From Streptomyces hygroscopicus (lineage in GTDB: Bacteria > Actinomycetota > Actinomycetes > Streptomycetales > Streptomycetaceae): DNA of 64,000 nt. Of the stretch, positions 6,826-10,635 are shown piece after piece. The DNA lies in the NCBI GenBank assembly GCA_002021875.1, contig CP018627.1, forward strand, positions 3,100,001 to 3,164,000, read 5' to 3'. Within the stretch, counting starts at the first letter, position 1. Each line of letters opens with the position of its first letter. Position numbers and translations under genes: made by a program. The notes beneath the pieces are model-generated. The model was not told the DNA's origin. It did not search any database and worked only from the letters and a program-made list of their open reading frames with translations.

Positions 6826-7647
6826 TCAGAAGGACGCCAGCACGGAGCCCTGGTACTGGTCCTTGATGTACTTCTTCACCTCGGGGGAGGTGAGGAGCTT
6901 GGCCAGCTTCTTGACGCGCGGGTCGTCCTCGTTGCCCTTCTTCACGGCCAGGAAGTTGGCGTACGGGTTGTTCTTGGGCGATTCGAGGAGGATGGCGTCC
7001 TTGGCGGGCTTGAGGTGCGCCTCGATGGCGTAGTTGCCGTTGACGACCGCGGCGTCCACGTCGTCGAGCGACCGCGGCAGCTGGGCGGCCTCCAGTTCCT
7101 TGAACTTCAGGCCCTTGGGGTTGGTGACGATGTCCTTGGGGGTGGCCTCGTTGCCGACGCCGCTCTTGAGCTTGATGACCCCATTGGCGTCCAGCAGCTT
7201 CAGCGCGCGGGCCTCGTTGACCGTGTCGCTCGGGACGGCCACGGTGGCGCCCTTCTTGAGCTCGCCGGCCTTCTTCACCTTGTGCGAGTAGAGGCCGAGC
7301 GGCTCGAGGTGCACGGTGACGACGGGCACGATGTCGGTGCCCTTCTTCTTGTTGAAGTCGTCCAGGAACGGCTGGTTCTGGAAGTAGTTGGCGCCGACCG
7401 AGCCGTCCTGGGTGGAGAGGTTCGGCGTGTTGTAGTCGGTGAACTCCTTGACCTCGAGCTTGAGGCCCGCCTTTTCGGCCAGGTGGTCCTTGACGTAGTT
7501 GAGTATCTCCGCGTGCGGGACCGGGCTCGCGGCGACGACCAGCGCGCCGTTCTTGTCGTCGGAGGACGAGGGGCTGCAGGCGGCGGCGCCGAGGGCGAGC
7601 GCGCCGGCGGCGAGGACGGTGGTGACGGTCTTGGAGGTGTTACGCAC
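6826..7647 (-). CDS. metQ: MetQ/NlpA-type substrate-binding lipoprotein
   Basis: Extracytoplasmic binding lipoprotein of a MetNIQ importer, 273 residues. Signal peptide with lipobox-like GAAAC, then the NlpA-family body (VVAASPVPHAEIL, ANYFQNQPFLDDF, FKELEAAQLPRSLDDVDAAV). The family carries methionine and its derivatives; some members bind other sulfur amino acids. I chose GTG 7647 (VRNTSKTV), which has AAAGG just upstream; a longer ATG start at 7674 lacks a good ribosome site. Third gene of the metN-metI-metQ operon, 96 nt after metI. The cysteine-codon-rich leader ahead of the operon suggests control by sulfur amino-acid supply. Confidence 0.88.
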   Translation of the reverse strand: MRNTSKTVTTVLAAGALALGAAACSPSSSDDKNGALVVAASPVPHAEILNYVKDHLAEKAGLKLEVKEFTDYNTPNLSTQDGSVGANYFQNQPFLDDFNKKKGTDIVPVVTVHLEPLGLYSHKVKKAGELKKGATVAVPSDTVNEARALKLLDANGVIKLKSGVGNEATPKDIVTNPKGLKFKELEAAQLPRSLDDVDAAVVNGNYAIEAHLKPAKDAILLESPKNNPYANFLAVKKGNEDDPRVKKLAKLLTSPEVKKYIKDQYQGSVLASF

Positions 7648-7743
7648 GAAAAGTGCCTTTCTTCGAGGGCGCACGAATCCGCCGCGGGTGCGGAAGCGGA
7701 ATGACGGGCGGGTGGTAAGGGGGGTACGGAGGTGGGTGGGGGC

Positions 7744-8532
7744 TCAGGGGACCTTGGTCGGCTCCACGGACTCGATCTCGGCGGGCGCGGCCTGCGGCTC
7801 CGGGGCCGGAGCGGGCTTCCCGGCCCGGGACGCGCCGCCGCGCAGCAGCACCAGCCGCGGGGCGACCGAGGAGCGGCCGCGGTGCGACAGGCCGCGGGCG
7901 GCGAGATCGCCCGCGAACTGGATGACGGAGATGACCACCGCGAGGATGGCGACGGTGATCCACATCAGCTTGGTCTCGAACCGCAGATAGCCGTAGCGGA
8001 CCGCCAGGTCACCGAGGCCACCGGCGCCGACCGTGCCGGCCATCGCGGAGTAGCCGATGAGCGCGACGATCGTGGTGGTCGCGCTGGAGATCAGCGCGGG
8101 CAGCGACTCGGGCAGCAGCACCTTGCGGACGACGGTCCAGGTGGAGCCGCCCATCGACTGCACGGCCTCGACCAGCCCGCCGTCCACCTCGCGCACCGCG
8201 GTCTCCACGAGCCGGGCGTAGAAGGGGATGGCGCCGATGGCCAGGGGCACGATCGCGGCCTCGGGGCCGATGGTGGTGCCCACGATCGCGCGGGTGAAGG
8301 AGATCAGGGCGACCATCAGGATGATGAACGGCATCGAGCGGGCGACGTTGACGATCTGCCCGACGACCTTGTTCACCACGACGTTCCGCAGCACTCCGCC
8401 GCGGTCGGTGAGGACCAGCAGCACACCGAGCGGCAGTCCGCCGACGACGGCGATCACCGCCGACCAGCCGACCATGTAGAGGGTGTCCCAACATGCCTGC
8501 TCCAGCAGGGGCTCCATCTCGGACCAGGTCAC
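7744..8532 (-). CDS. metI: MetI-type ABC transporter permease
   Basis: 262-residue inner-membrane permease with about five hydrophobic segments and the coupling region EAVQSMGGSTWTVVRKVLLPES, which docks with the ATPase. The C-terminal 45 residues are an Ala/Pro-rich cytoplasmic tail not needed for the fold. The GTG start overlaps the metN stop (GTGA), indicating translational coupling. Pairs with MetN and MetQ to import methionine or a related sulfur amino acid. Confidence 0.9.
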   Translation of the reverse strand: MTWSEMEPLLEQACWDTLYMVGWSAVIAVVGGLPLGVLLVLTDRGGVLRNVVVNKVVGQIVNVARSMPFIILMVALISFTRAIVGTTIGPEAAIVPLAIGAIPFYARLVETAVREVDGGLVEAVQSMGGSTWTVVRKVLLPESLPALISSATTTIVALIGYSAMAGTVGAGGLGDLAVRYGYLRFETKLMWITVAILAVVISVIQFAGDLAARGLSHRGRSSVAPRLVLLRGGASRAGKPAPAPEPQAAPAEIESVEPTKVP

Positions 8533-9584
8533 TTGGCGCCCTCCTTGAGCAGCGGGGCCGGGTTCGCGCGCGGGCCGTCGGCGATGGCCGCCACGTCGAC
8601 CTGCAGGCCCTGCTCCCGCAGGAAGCCGATCGGGACGACGTTCTCCTCGAACCGGCCGGGCAGCTCGATCCGCATCCGGCCGACCTGGTGGCCGCCGACG
8701 GTGTCCATCGCCGCGCCCAGGATCGAGATGTCGATGTTGTACGTACGGGAGAGCTGGGAGATGACCGGCTTGGTGGCCGCCTCGCCCTGGAAGGTGACGT
8801 CCACGACCGTACGGTCCTCGCCCGAGGGCACCCCGCCGACCGGGAAGAGCTCCTGGGCCAGCTCGGAGCCGGGCGTCGCCAGCAACTCGCTGACCTGGCC
8901 GGACTCGACGACCCGGCCGTCGCGCATCAGCGCGGCCGAATCGCAGATCGTCTTGACGACGTCCATCTCGTGCGTGATGAGCAGCACGGTCAGGCCGAGC
9001 TGCTCATTGAGGTCGCGCAGCAGCCGGAGGATCGAGCGGGTGGTCTCGGGGTCGAGCGCGGAGGTCGCCTCGTCCGAGAGCAGCACCTTGGGGTCGCCGG
9101 CGAGCGCGCGGGCGATGCCGACGCGCTGCTTCTGGCCGCCGGAGAGCTGCGCGGGGTACGCCTTCGCCTTGTCGCTGAGGCCCACCAGCTCCAGCAGCTC
9201 CAGGGCCTTGCGGGTGCGCTCCTTGCCGGAGACGCCGAGGATCTCCAGGGGCAGCTCGACGTTGTCCCGCACGGTGCGCGAGGAGAGCAGGTTGAAGTGC
9301 TGGAACACCATGCCGATACGGCTGCGGGCCTGGCGCAGCGCGGAGCCGGCGCTCTGGCGGCGCCCGGCGAGGGCGGTCAGGTCCTGGCCGGCCACGGTGA
9401 CCGTGCCGGAGGTGGGGCGCTCCAGGAGGTTGACGCAGCGGATGAGGGTGGACTTCCCGGCGCCGCTCTGGCCGACGACGCCGTACACCTCACCCTCGCG
9501 GACATGCAGATCGACGCCGTCGAGGGCGGTGACCTCGCGGCCTCGTGAGCGGTAGACCTTGGTCAGGTCCGTGGTGGTGATCAC
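8529..9584 (-). CDS. metN: MetN-type ABC transporter ATP-binding protein
   Basis: Cytoplasmic ATPase of the importer, 351 residues from GTG 9584 (VITTTDLTKVYRSRG). Walker A is GQSGAGKST, the signature LSGGQKQRV, Walker B followed by DEATSALDPETT. The C-terminal 90 residues form the NIL regulatory domain (VVDVTFQGEAATKPVISQL onward) that in characterised MetN proteins binds methionine and shuts the pump down. Upstream in-frame codons extend to 9743 but are Arg/Pro/Ala-rich non-domain sequence, so the shorter start is used. First structural gene of the operon. Confidence 0.92.
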   Translation of the reverse strand: MITTTDLTKVYRSRGREVTALDGVDLHVREGEVYGVVGQSGAGKSTLIRCVNLLERPTSGTVTVAGQDLTALAGRRQSAGSALRQARSRIGMVFQHFNLLSSRTVRDNVELPLEILGVSGKERTRKALELLELVGLSDKAKAYPAQLSGGQKQRVGIARALAGDPKVLLSDEATSALDPETTRSILRLLRDLNEQLGLTVLLITHEMDVVKTICDSAALMRDGRVVESGQVSELLATPGSELAQELFPVGGVPSGEDRTVVDVTFQGEAATKPVISQLSRTYNIDISILGAAMDTVGGHQVGRMRIELPGRFEENVVPIGFLREQGLQVDVAAIADGPRANPAPLLKEGAK

Positions 9585-9747
9585 AGGGTTTCCGTCACTG
9601 TTGAGTGCACGGCGGTTGGTACCGCCGGGCACGGCTCGTTCATTTCGGAACGCGGCAGGGCGGACCCGAGGGGATGCGCGATGTGTGGGCGCGTTTCGGG
9701 TTCCGGTGACGCGGGGCGGCGCGGCCCGGCGCGCTGGGCGCACGGGT

Positions 9748-9779
9748 CCGGCTCAGCCGGTCTCGCTTCGGGGCGCGAG
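9748..9779 (-). promoter_or_regulatory. Tandem hairpins in the metNIQ leader
   Basis: Between the cysteine-rich mini-ORF and metN the transcript can fold two adjacent stems: CTCGC/GCGAG (9762-9779, 8-nt loop), then CCGGC/GCCGG (9748-9760, 3-nt loop). They begin 17 nt after the leader stop codon, where a stalled ribosome would alter folding. Attenuator role inferred. The rest of 9585-9987 shows no other gene. Confidence 0.35.
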
Positions 9780-9795
9780 GCTCAGGCAGGGGCCC

Positions 9796-9882
9796 TCAGC
9801 AGTCACACATTCGACACCGACAACGAGCACCGGGCGTGGGGTTCGCCTCGGTCGCAGGGATGCGGCAGCTCGTCGTGGTCAT
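9796..9882 (-). CDS. Cysteine-rich leader peptide of the metNIQ operon
   Basis: 28-codon ORF from ATG 9882 to TGA 9796, same strand as and 211 nt ahead of metN. It starts MTTTSC and ends CRCRMCDC, so five of 28 residues are Cys (6, 21, 23, 26, 28), four of them in the last eight, with a Met between. There is no Shine-Dalgarno; a TTTACT/TTACTT stretch 7-13 nt upstream could be a -10 element for a leaderless transcript. Known precedent: short leaderless polycysteine ORFs in mycobacteria act as cysteine-responsive attenuators of sulfur genes. Here low charged tRNA-Cys would stall ribosomes at the C-terminal codons and change metN expression. Function inferred from position and composition. Confidence 0.7.
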   Translation of the reverse strand: MTTTSCRIPATEANPTPGARCRCRMCDC

Positions 9883-9987
9883 GGCCGCAAGTAAAGCAGA
9901 CACGCGTACGGACCCATCAAGCATGTCCGTATAGCGGACGTTCTTGACCAGTCCGTGGACAGTGGGAGGGGGTCGCCGGGGTCCGGC

Positions 9988-10635
9988 TCAGACCCGGCAG
10001 GTGATCTCCACGCCCCCGTCGAGGAGCCGTGCGGACACGGCCGACAGGTCCTCGACCACGATGTCGGCGACCAGCTCCTCGCGGGCGGTCGTTGTGGTCA
10101 ATGCCACGGTCCGCATCCCGGCCGCGCGGCCGGCCGCGAGCCCGGCCGGGGCGTCCTCGAAGACCACACAGCGTGCCGGGTCGACTCCCAGCCGCTCGGC
10201 CGCCAGCAGGAACGGCTCGGGGTCGGGCTTGCCACGGGTGATGTCGTCGGAGGTGATCAGCGTTCCGGGGCGTATCGCCACCTCGGCCAGGCGGGCCTCG
10301 GCCAGCGGGCGGTTGGCGGAGGTCACCACGGCCCAGCGCGCGGCGGGCAGCCCCGCCAGCAGCTCGGCGGTGCCGGGGAGCAGCTTCACCCCGCCCGGTA
10401 CGTCCTCCAGCTCCAGCTCGTCGATGCGCGCCCGGGCCCGCGGGGCGCGGTCGGCGGGGAGCAGATCGGCGATGATGTCGTCGGCCGGGCGGCCGTGCAG
10501 CTCGACCCGGGCGAAGTCCTCCGCCGGAATCCCCTGCTCCTCGGCCCAGCGGGTCCAGCAGCGATGCACCGAGTCCAGGGAGGAGACGAGCGTTCCGTCG
10601 TTGTCGAACAACAGCGCGTCAGCGGAGATCTTCAT
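9988..10635 (-). CDS. HAD-superfamily phosphatase (subfamily IA)
   Basis: 215-residue haloacid-dehalogenase hydrolase. Motif I is LLFDNDGTLVSS (nucleophile Asp and general-acid Asp), motif II VVTSANRP, motif III lysine in GKPDPEPFL, and the metal-binding acidic pair in VFEDAPAG. This layout is typical of sugar-phosphate and glycerol-phosphate phosphatases such as the 2-deoxyglucose-6-phosphatase group; the substrate cannot be fixed. Transcribed alone, divergent from the membrane-protein pair at 10784. Confidence 0.85.
   Translation of the reverse strand: MKISADALLFDNDGTLVSSLDSVHRCWTRWAEEQGIPAEDFARVELHGRPADDIIADLLPADRAPRARARIDELELEDVPGGVKLLPGTAELLAGLPAARWAVVTSANRPLAEARLAEVAIRPGTLITSDDITRGKPDPEPFLLAAERLGVDPARCVVFEDAPAGLAAGRAAGMRTVALTTTTAREELVADIVVEDLSAVSARLLDGGVEITCRV

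Follow-up and report, generated by a model that had tools for sequence, protein, structure and literature searches.

In attenuators of the trp type, leader codons and mutually exclusive RNA pairings are joined by a logic of ribosome position. Mycobacteria, as Canestrari reportedly described in 2020, carry leaderless polycysteine short ORFs (sORFs) ahead of sulfur genes. Cysteine leaders upstream of cys operons or cbs have also been listed for Mycobacterium, Propionibacterium (P. acnes) and Bifidobacterium (B. longum) (Seliverstov 2005; PMC1262725); the passages of that study devoted to them name no Streptomyces Cys leader and say that methionine operons are not preceded by conserved RNA structures. 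For Streptomyces, a reannotation of S. lividans TK24 (2021; PMC8079986) mentions the Rfam elements Streptomyces-metH, metK and SAM-IV as cis elements of Met metabolism, and its Table 4 places a leader, metL (MSTTSDRTPATEATTTPGARCMCRRMCAF), upstream of metNIQ. According to the passages on metL, its transcription start is leaderless and several hairpins follow it on the 3' side, a typical Rho-independent terminator being absent; metL is taken, without a test, for a Met/Thr leader (“several methionines and threonines”), and termination is left undecided. The leader is therefore already known from one species, and these passages do not establish its signal or its mechanism. No further publication recognisable as treating it came up in a literature search, “metN” is missing from the main texts of the Streptomyces Term-seq studies PMC6742748, PMC8269248, PMC8780764 and PMC8914203, and the regulation of Met uptake in Streptomyces is unsettled in the literature searched.

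What, then, does comparison across genomes add to metL? New here is the comparative anatomy: an invariant CGA-AUG near the stop, a Cys/Met tail that recurs in three or more families, a coding region whose evolution resembles that of an RNA, and a promoter palindrome in common with SAM-IV riboswitches. The comparison starts from a 64,000-nt stretch of Streptomyces hygroscopicus DNA (the window), in which the leader ORF occupies 9796..9882 of the minus strand (ATG 9882-9880, TGA 9798-9796) and encodes MTTTSCRIPATEANPTPGARCRCRMCDC in 28 sense codons. Five of these are Cys, four within the final eight codons, and a gap of 211 nt (9795-9585) leads to the GTG start of metN at 9584; frame length, Cys count and gap are as in a first-pass annotation of this DNA, which gave no strand. 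That annotation also held the Cys cluster to be beyond chance, and it is: Cys makes up 0.8% of residues across seven neighbouring ORFs, and the frame is intact in every relative compared (198/198 loci, see below). The result that it had named as refuting, a leader not conserved in front of metN, is not what the relatives show. The leader is not new, since S. lividans metL already appears in the table of PMC8079986; the printed S. lividans peptide (29 aa) is identical to the leaders of two loci in our collection, L091 and L101, and the window leader, an orthologue of metL, aligns with both.

Downstream on the same strand lie metN (8529..9584), metI (7744..8532) and a metQ-type lipoprotein gene (6826..7674), identified by ORF calling, Pfam and NCBIfam. 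Their Pfam domains (ABC_tran plus NIL, BPD_transp_1 and Lipoprotein_9) are consistent with MetNIQ; among the NCBIfam Met-importer models, MetI scores above its cutoff and MetN and MetQ match below theirs, and the best named record for MetN is from S. niphimycinicus (98% identity). Upstream, a -10-like TTTACT (9890..9895, minus strand) ends 7 nt before the ATG at 9882. An alternative in-frame ATG at 9924 would give a 42-aa version of the leader, but the position of TTTACT makes the short frame the one that suits a leaderless transcript; 168 of the 173 distinct leaders keep this distance at 6 or 7 nt, computationally the arrangement of a leaderless start. Profile searches recovered nothing for this region: Rfam gave no match at gathering score in the whole window, a permissive Rfam scan of 9540-10000 gave a single one, below cutoff and on the opposite strand, and NCBIfam leader-peptide HMMs gave no family for three versions of the peptide.

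MetN itself is present in 192/199 Streptomyces genomes (E ≤ 1e-80). A covariance model built from 45 leader regions matches 184/197 genomes order-wide at E ≤ 0.1 and, at E ≤ 1e-16, 176/181 sampled Streptomyces genomes, one of the others having a weak match and four none; the leader is thus directly testable in laboratory Streptomyces. A search of the window's own genome for second copies of the leader gave one strong match (E 1.7e-38; the next 0.013). Class-wide, 85/296 genomes match at E ≤ 0.1, of which 28 are Streptomyces and the rest are weak (best 2.8e-5); that best weak match (L170) lies upstream of metN, and another weak one (L171) has no metN-like frame in its ORF list. The core pattern alone is uninformative as a genome search, with 187 matches against 105 in a reversed control. 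The comparison rests on 198 loci (173 of them distinct when the ORF and a further 45 nt are compared), 47 picked by metN similarity and 151 by the covariance model, a sample in which some genomes occur twice, which is not independent of the query and in which selection by the model favours conserved cores. Among the 173 distinct leaders, lengths lie between 28 and 37 aa and differ in steps of whole codons. Sufficient metN for a tree was available for 91 of the 173; L208, L210 and L211 were left out (metN start not found), as were L012, L013 and L014 from the switch calculation below (no P5 motif).

The promoter carries a second conserved element. In 83/92 loci with enough upstream sequence, TGTCC-N7-GGACA (at most one mismatch) lies some 50 nt ahead of the leader's ATG; the window copy, the operator-like palindrome CGTCCGCTATACGGACA (9924..9940, minus strand), is centred at roughly that distance and has one mismatch to the consensus. 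A stricter form, TGTCCRNNATNYGGACA, has one exact copy in the same genome, the metN copy differing from it at one position. Between the end of the exact copy and a SAM-IV riboswitch (96.6 bits; L353:1341-1517) there are 41 nt, and behind the riboswitch lies an Aminotran_5 gene that resembles cysteine desulfurases but scores below the SufS cutoff; nine further loci of this genome with one mismatch, metN included, have no Rfam match. Exact copies occur in 32/41 Streptomyces genomes, with 1 in the reversed control. Among 30 exact loci, 13 precede a metN leader by 40-42 nt, one (that of the window's genome) precedes SAM-IV by 41 and 16 precede neither; at the Rfam cutoff, SAM-IV was found at 0/29 of the exact loci from other genomes. 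SAM-IV itself is present in 31/31 Streptomyces genomes, and in 30 genomes other than the window's, a looser palindrome lies 36-46 nt before its best copy in 0/30 with 0-1 mismatches, 8/30 with up to 2 and 18/30 with up to 3, the control stretch giving 0/30. From these positions, one regulator may serve both the metN-leader and the SAM-IV promoters, with the palindrome as its putative operator. Other neighbours of the palindrome were seen in passing: a Glycos_transf_3 gene, which we take to be trpD-like, upstream of the L353 riboswitch; related purple-acid-phosphatase-like genes behind exact copies in L377, L381 and L390, possibly a second target; and an mtnA-like frame in L370, with an exact copy inside it or at its edge.

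Which codons of the leader matter? Numbered from the stop, the Cys/Met-rich tail of the window peptide, ARCRCRMCDC (9799..9828, minus strand), contains Arg -5 and Met -4 (9808..9813), and this pair, with Arg always CGA, is found in 173/173 distinct leaders and unchanged on the 91-tip metN tree. The neighbouring sulfur residues are frequent and replaceable: Cys stands at -3 in 140, at -6 in 154 and at -8 in 149 of the 173, Met at -7 in 132, and at least four Cys or Met occur in the last 12 codons of 166/173. A conserved Cys run near the stop was not found in the 173 leaders; Cys is interspersed and no single position is conserved. On the tree, codons -3, -6 and -8 underwent 11, 12 and 12 nonsynonymous and 3, 4 and 4 synonymous events, although at -6 and farther up some changes reflect inserted codons and not every nonsynonymous event at these positions loses Cys (at -3, 10 of the 11 are TGC to CGC). 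An attenuator that senses Cys-tRNA alone, as a Streptomyces counterpart of the polycysteine sORFs known from mycobacteria, would account for leaders with up to six Cys (three in the commonest class, 95/173) and for the leaderless spacing, and Met can supply Cys through reverse transsulfuration. It is nevertheless unlikely, given the changes just listed, a leader reduced to a single Cys, the invariance of Met -4, and Met runs beside Cys in the tails of two of the other groups below (f3 and g2). As the comparison shows, a conspicuous group of Cys codons may be a misleading sign: what stays constant is Arg-Met. The parallel with mycobacteria drawn in the first-pass annotation holds for a conserved, leaderless metNIQ leader that is rich in sulfur codons and, with fair likelihood, of attenuator type; Cys-specific sensing is not supported, with Met equally part of the tail, and neither is the hint at a cyst(e)ine importer, as the proteins fit Met-importer models, the promoter palindrome is common to SAM-IV riboswitch promoters and no sign of cystine import was found.

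The fixed distance of Arg-Met from the stop in all 173 leaders would also be expected if the tail RM[C/R]xx-stop arrested the ribosome upon a metabolite. Such nascent-peptide arrest seems very unlikely to us: most changes in the front of the peptide and at residues -3 to -1 are nonsynonymous, and the constraint extends to the silent base of CGA. This codon is rare, 5 of 144 Arg codons in the seven neighbouring ORFs, and its invariance within a leader is an unusual, checkable clue that decoding speed may serve as a signal. The genome gave 67 tRNA matches, of which 65 were confirmed as genes (one weak match lay outside the regions read and one region gave none), and the Arg anticodons among them are ACG, CCG, CCT and TCT, with no TCG; CGA should therefore be decoded by tRNA-Arg(ACG) via inosine wobble, an established decoding rule. 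In a Salmonella his-leader assay, CGA was slower than CGU and CGC, according to the relevant passage of PMC4046918.

Leaders were also sought upstream of metN in another genus of the same family (g2) and in two further families (f3 and f19); metN is present in 7/14, 7/14 (4 with a usable metN start) and 27/61 genomes, respectively. At least five Cys or Met occur in the last 12 residues of the best upstream frame in 7/7, 4/4 and 6/27, whereas the antisense strand gave 0 for every group and Markov shuffles 0-0.2%; 21/27 of the f19 genomes with metN fall below this threshold. The clear leaders of these groups, such as MTANTTAHLTGAMPAGGRGMRCCRMCGC (g2) and MIDTQSSRTSAAILAPRMMCGMPMCRMCSC (f3), differ in sequence and have in common the Cys- and Met-rich tail and usually the core TGTCGAATGTG; CGAATG lies at a distance of 3-5 codons from the stop in 25 representatives, and in one of these a second copy stands farther up. 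Six other f19 loci (L194, L195, L198, L199, L201 and L203) have frames with scattered Met and Cys (e.g., ...CAMGGMPSMR) upstream of metN, and the core scan reported no leader in them.

Between these relatives, as we read the tails, Cys and Met swap positions while their density stays constant. Of all the evidence, the tails of these groups argue most strongly that both sulfur amino acids are sensed at the codon level, and for this reason the leader is not called a cysteine leader here. Within Streptomyces, codon selection is not proven, because no Cys is individually conserved and the tail has no synonymous excess. Should it be called a methionine leader instead, or a Met/Thr leader, as the S. 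lividans authors had it? An importer of the Met type, an invariant Met -4, a promoter palindrome common to SAM-IV and the published name metL (PMC8079986, in the passages on this gene) all speak for this, but in no group with clear leaders are the tails, in total, poorer in Cys than in Met, and Thr is encoded in the front part, where the pattern of change is that of an RNA. We regard a Met or Met/Thr attenuator as possible, if doubtful.

The front part is where the leader least resembles a protein-coding sequence. On the 91-tip tree the per-codon figures for metN are 8.8 synonymous changes and 3.3 nonsynonymous ones; leader codons have 0-4 synonymous changes, and codons 6, 8, 9, 14 and 15 changed 21-29 times nonsynonymously and 0-3 times synonymously, the other counted codons having 0-16 changes in total. 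So low a synonymous rate suggests constraint at the level of RNA, not of the peptide. The 165-nt leader RNA of the window folds better than most of its shuffles (z = -3.21; 2/200 equally good). Its single-sequence minimum free energy structure contains a predicted three-way junction within the ORF (9820..9876, minus strand), made of P1 (9876-9868/9828-9820), P2 (9864-9861/9856-9853, with a YCCY loop) and P3 (9852-9844/9836-9829). In the 173 leaders 96-99% of cells are paired in these stems, compared with 1-52% when partners are slid by 1 or 2; covariation support is weak because few double changes occur. In the RNAalifold consensus of 45 sequences, from an alignment with a gap within P1, the covariation term is as small as -0.34 kcal/mol, and of the junction just the inner part of P3 appears; the right arm of P1 is paired elsewhere, and P2 is missing save two pairs in another place.

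Could the RNA come first, with a ligand- or protein-binding or polymerase-guiding fold as the element and the Cys and Met codons as by-products of motifs such as UGUAUGUGUCGAAUGUG? The scarcity of synonymous change, the invariant CGA synonym and the restriction of codon -3 to TGC, TGT and CGC fit this. A frame that is never broken and lengths that change by whole codons do not, nor do the other groups, whose different RNA sequences still yield in-frame Cys/Met-rich tails; no Rfam family covers the element. We hold this reading to be rather improbable.

Behind the stop, the tail faces two predicted alternative structures. Hairpin P5 (CTCGC-loop-GCGAG; 9762..9779, minus strand) has 98.7% of cells paired, and its motif is present in 170/173 leaders with at most 3 substitutions; the distant f19 locus L181 has the compensated form CTCAC/GTGAG. 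P5 is short, and no U-tract or T-run follows it in the sequences examined. The alternative pairing (9773..9808, minus strand), which excludes P5, joins 9808-9804 to 9777-9773 (GTGYG:CGCGC) and 9795-9792 to 9781-9778 (GGGC:GCCT); the RNAalifold consensus of the 45 sequences prefers it to P5, and both of its arms use the left side of P5. A GAGG:CCTC register shares a base with the GTGYG:CGCGC arm, and its cell counts, like those for a stem P4, are unreliable, since leaders ending in TAG and in TGA are offset by one base in the alignment of the 173; the GGGC:GCCT register is used instead. GTGYG consists of the last base of Met -4, codon -3 and the first base of -2, and the codons allowed at -3 are the exact set that keeps pairing with CGCGC, so that the Cys-to-Arg changes there can be explained without an amino-acid role. 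This arm has 98.7% of cells paired, and 20% when slid by 1, but with 79% still paired when slid by 2 the count alone proves little.

Outside Streptomyces the structure behind the stop varies. L179-L181 (f19) and L016 (Actinomadura) have the P5 region as well; the g2 and f3 leaders share tail and core TGTCGAATGTG with Streptomyces but lack P5, and have other hairpins behind the stop, in obvious competition with nothing else. The Kitasatospora leaders L013 and L014 are without the P5 motif, L013 having the core CGAATG twice, and their expression platform may have been rebuilt. Two small hairpins just 5' of the metN ribosome-binding region (9596-9632, minus strand; one of them 9605..9632 in the centroid fold) are alike in most Streptomyces loci compared, with stems altered in some. 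A long-range pairing of UGUCGA in the core with UCGACA at the metN ribosome site was considered and rejected: the site reads UCAACA in the window's own clade, UCGACA is exact in 33/62 loci and it is absent from the g2, f3 and f19 loci read, though the core persists there.

To this anatomy, which is conserved, we add inferred stalling, switching and output steps: the leader would be a ribosome-mediated attenuator of metNIQ that senses shortage of charged Cys- and Met-tRNA, the reading towards which we lean, if only slightly. It overlaps with its rivals and they with one another, so the likelihoods worded here are not additive. Transcription would start on the leader ATG or immediately beside it, and the transcript would be read leaderless, as reported for S. 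lividans and suggested here by the -10 spacing. The ribosome would melt the folded coding region and arrive at the tail, with its codons for Cys and Met and its slowly decoded Arg codons, CGA at -5 serving as a built-in slow step beside the last Met codon, tRNA-Arg(ACG) being the sole fitting tRNA found. If charged Cys- or Met-tRNA is scarce, the ribosome would halt in the tail and free the RNA that stretches from the third base of Met -4 to GGGC behind the stop; this RNA would then pair with the left arm of P5, exclude P5 and let metNIQ be expressed. Translation that reaches the stop would cover the same RNA, so that P5 could form and metNIQ expression would drop. The output step may be Rho, termination at a U-less hairpin, or translation; 3' ends without U-tracts in S. 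clavuligerus are discussed as I-shaped or Rho-dependent termination in the passage concerned (PMC8269248).

A switch calculation over 170 leaders, with the leading edge of the ribosome assumed to lie 11 nt past the first base of the A-site codon, agrees with attenuation in its predicted direction. As long as the transcript stops short of the right arm of P5, the mean pairing probability of the alternative arm is 0.66-0.68 with the A site at -9 to -7 and 0.03 at -6, a drop whose place follows from the assumed footprint. Once P5 is complete, its mean probability is 0.80 with the A site at -8 and 0.96 at the stop, changing by more than 0.3 in 40/170. The modelled equilibrium effect is thus small, and weak in most species, where P5 forms regardless of ribosome position. 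More tentatively still, the leader may be a sulfur gauge for two amino acids, in which shortage of Cys- and Met-tRNA is read, the inosine-read CGA gates the last Met codon, and the tail has persisted in three or more actinobacterial families while the rest was rebuilt; if so, the speed of the ribosome at the last Met codon would decide between two RNA structures.

How does the metNIQ leader compare with the systems described before? Its nearest relative is S. lividans metL, which has the same operon, a leaderless transcript and the same sequence family; the description of metL, in the passages of PMC8079986 that concern it, does not include the RNA folds, the CGA-AUG core or the wider distribution found here. 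With SAM-IV it has in common the palindrome of the promoter, and the leader itself is without an Rfam match. The Cys leaders listed by Seliverstov (PMC1262725) likewise have Cys codons near the stop and lack a clear terminator, Rho being suggested in the passages on them, but belong to cys operons or cbs and not to a Met-type importer. As in the polycysteine sORFs said to exist in mycobacteria, a leaderless short ORF with Cys codons precedes sulfur genes; here, in contrast, the Cys codons are interspersed with Met and Arg and individually replaceable, and the operon is that of a Met-type importer. Leader codons, mutually exclusive pairings and ribosome-position logic would, as modelled here, ally it with trp-type attenuators, from which it differs in having no U-tract terminator, in the proposed use of two amino acids, in a coding region predicted to be structured, and in putative sensor codons that lie right at the stop.
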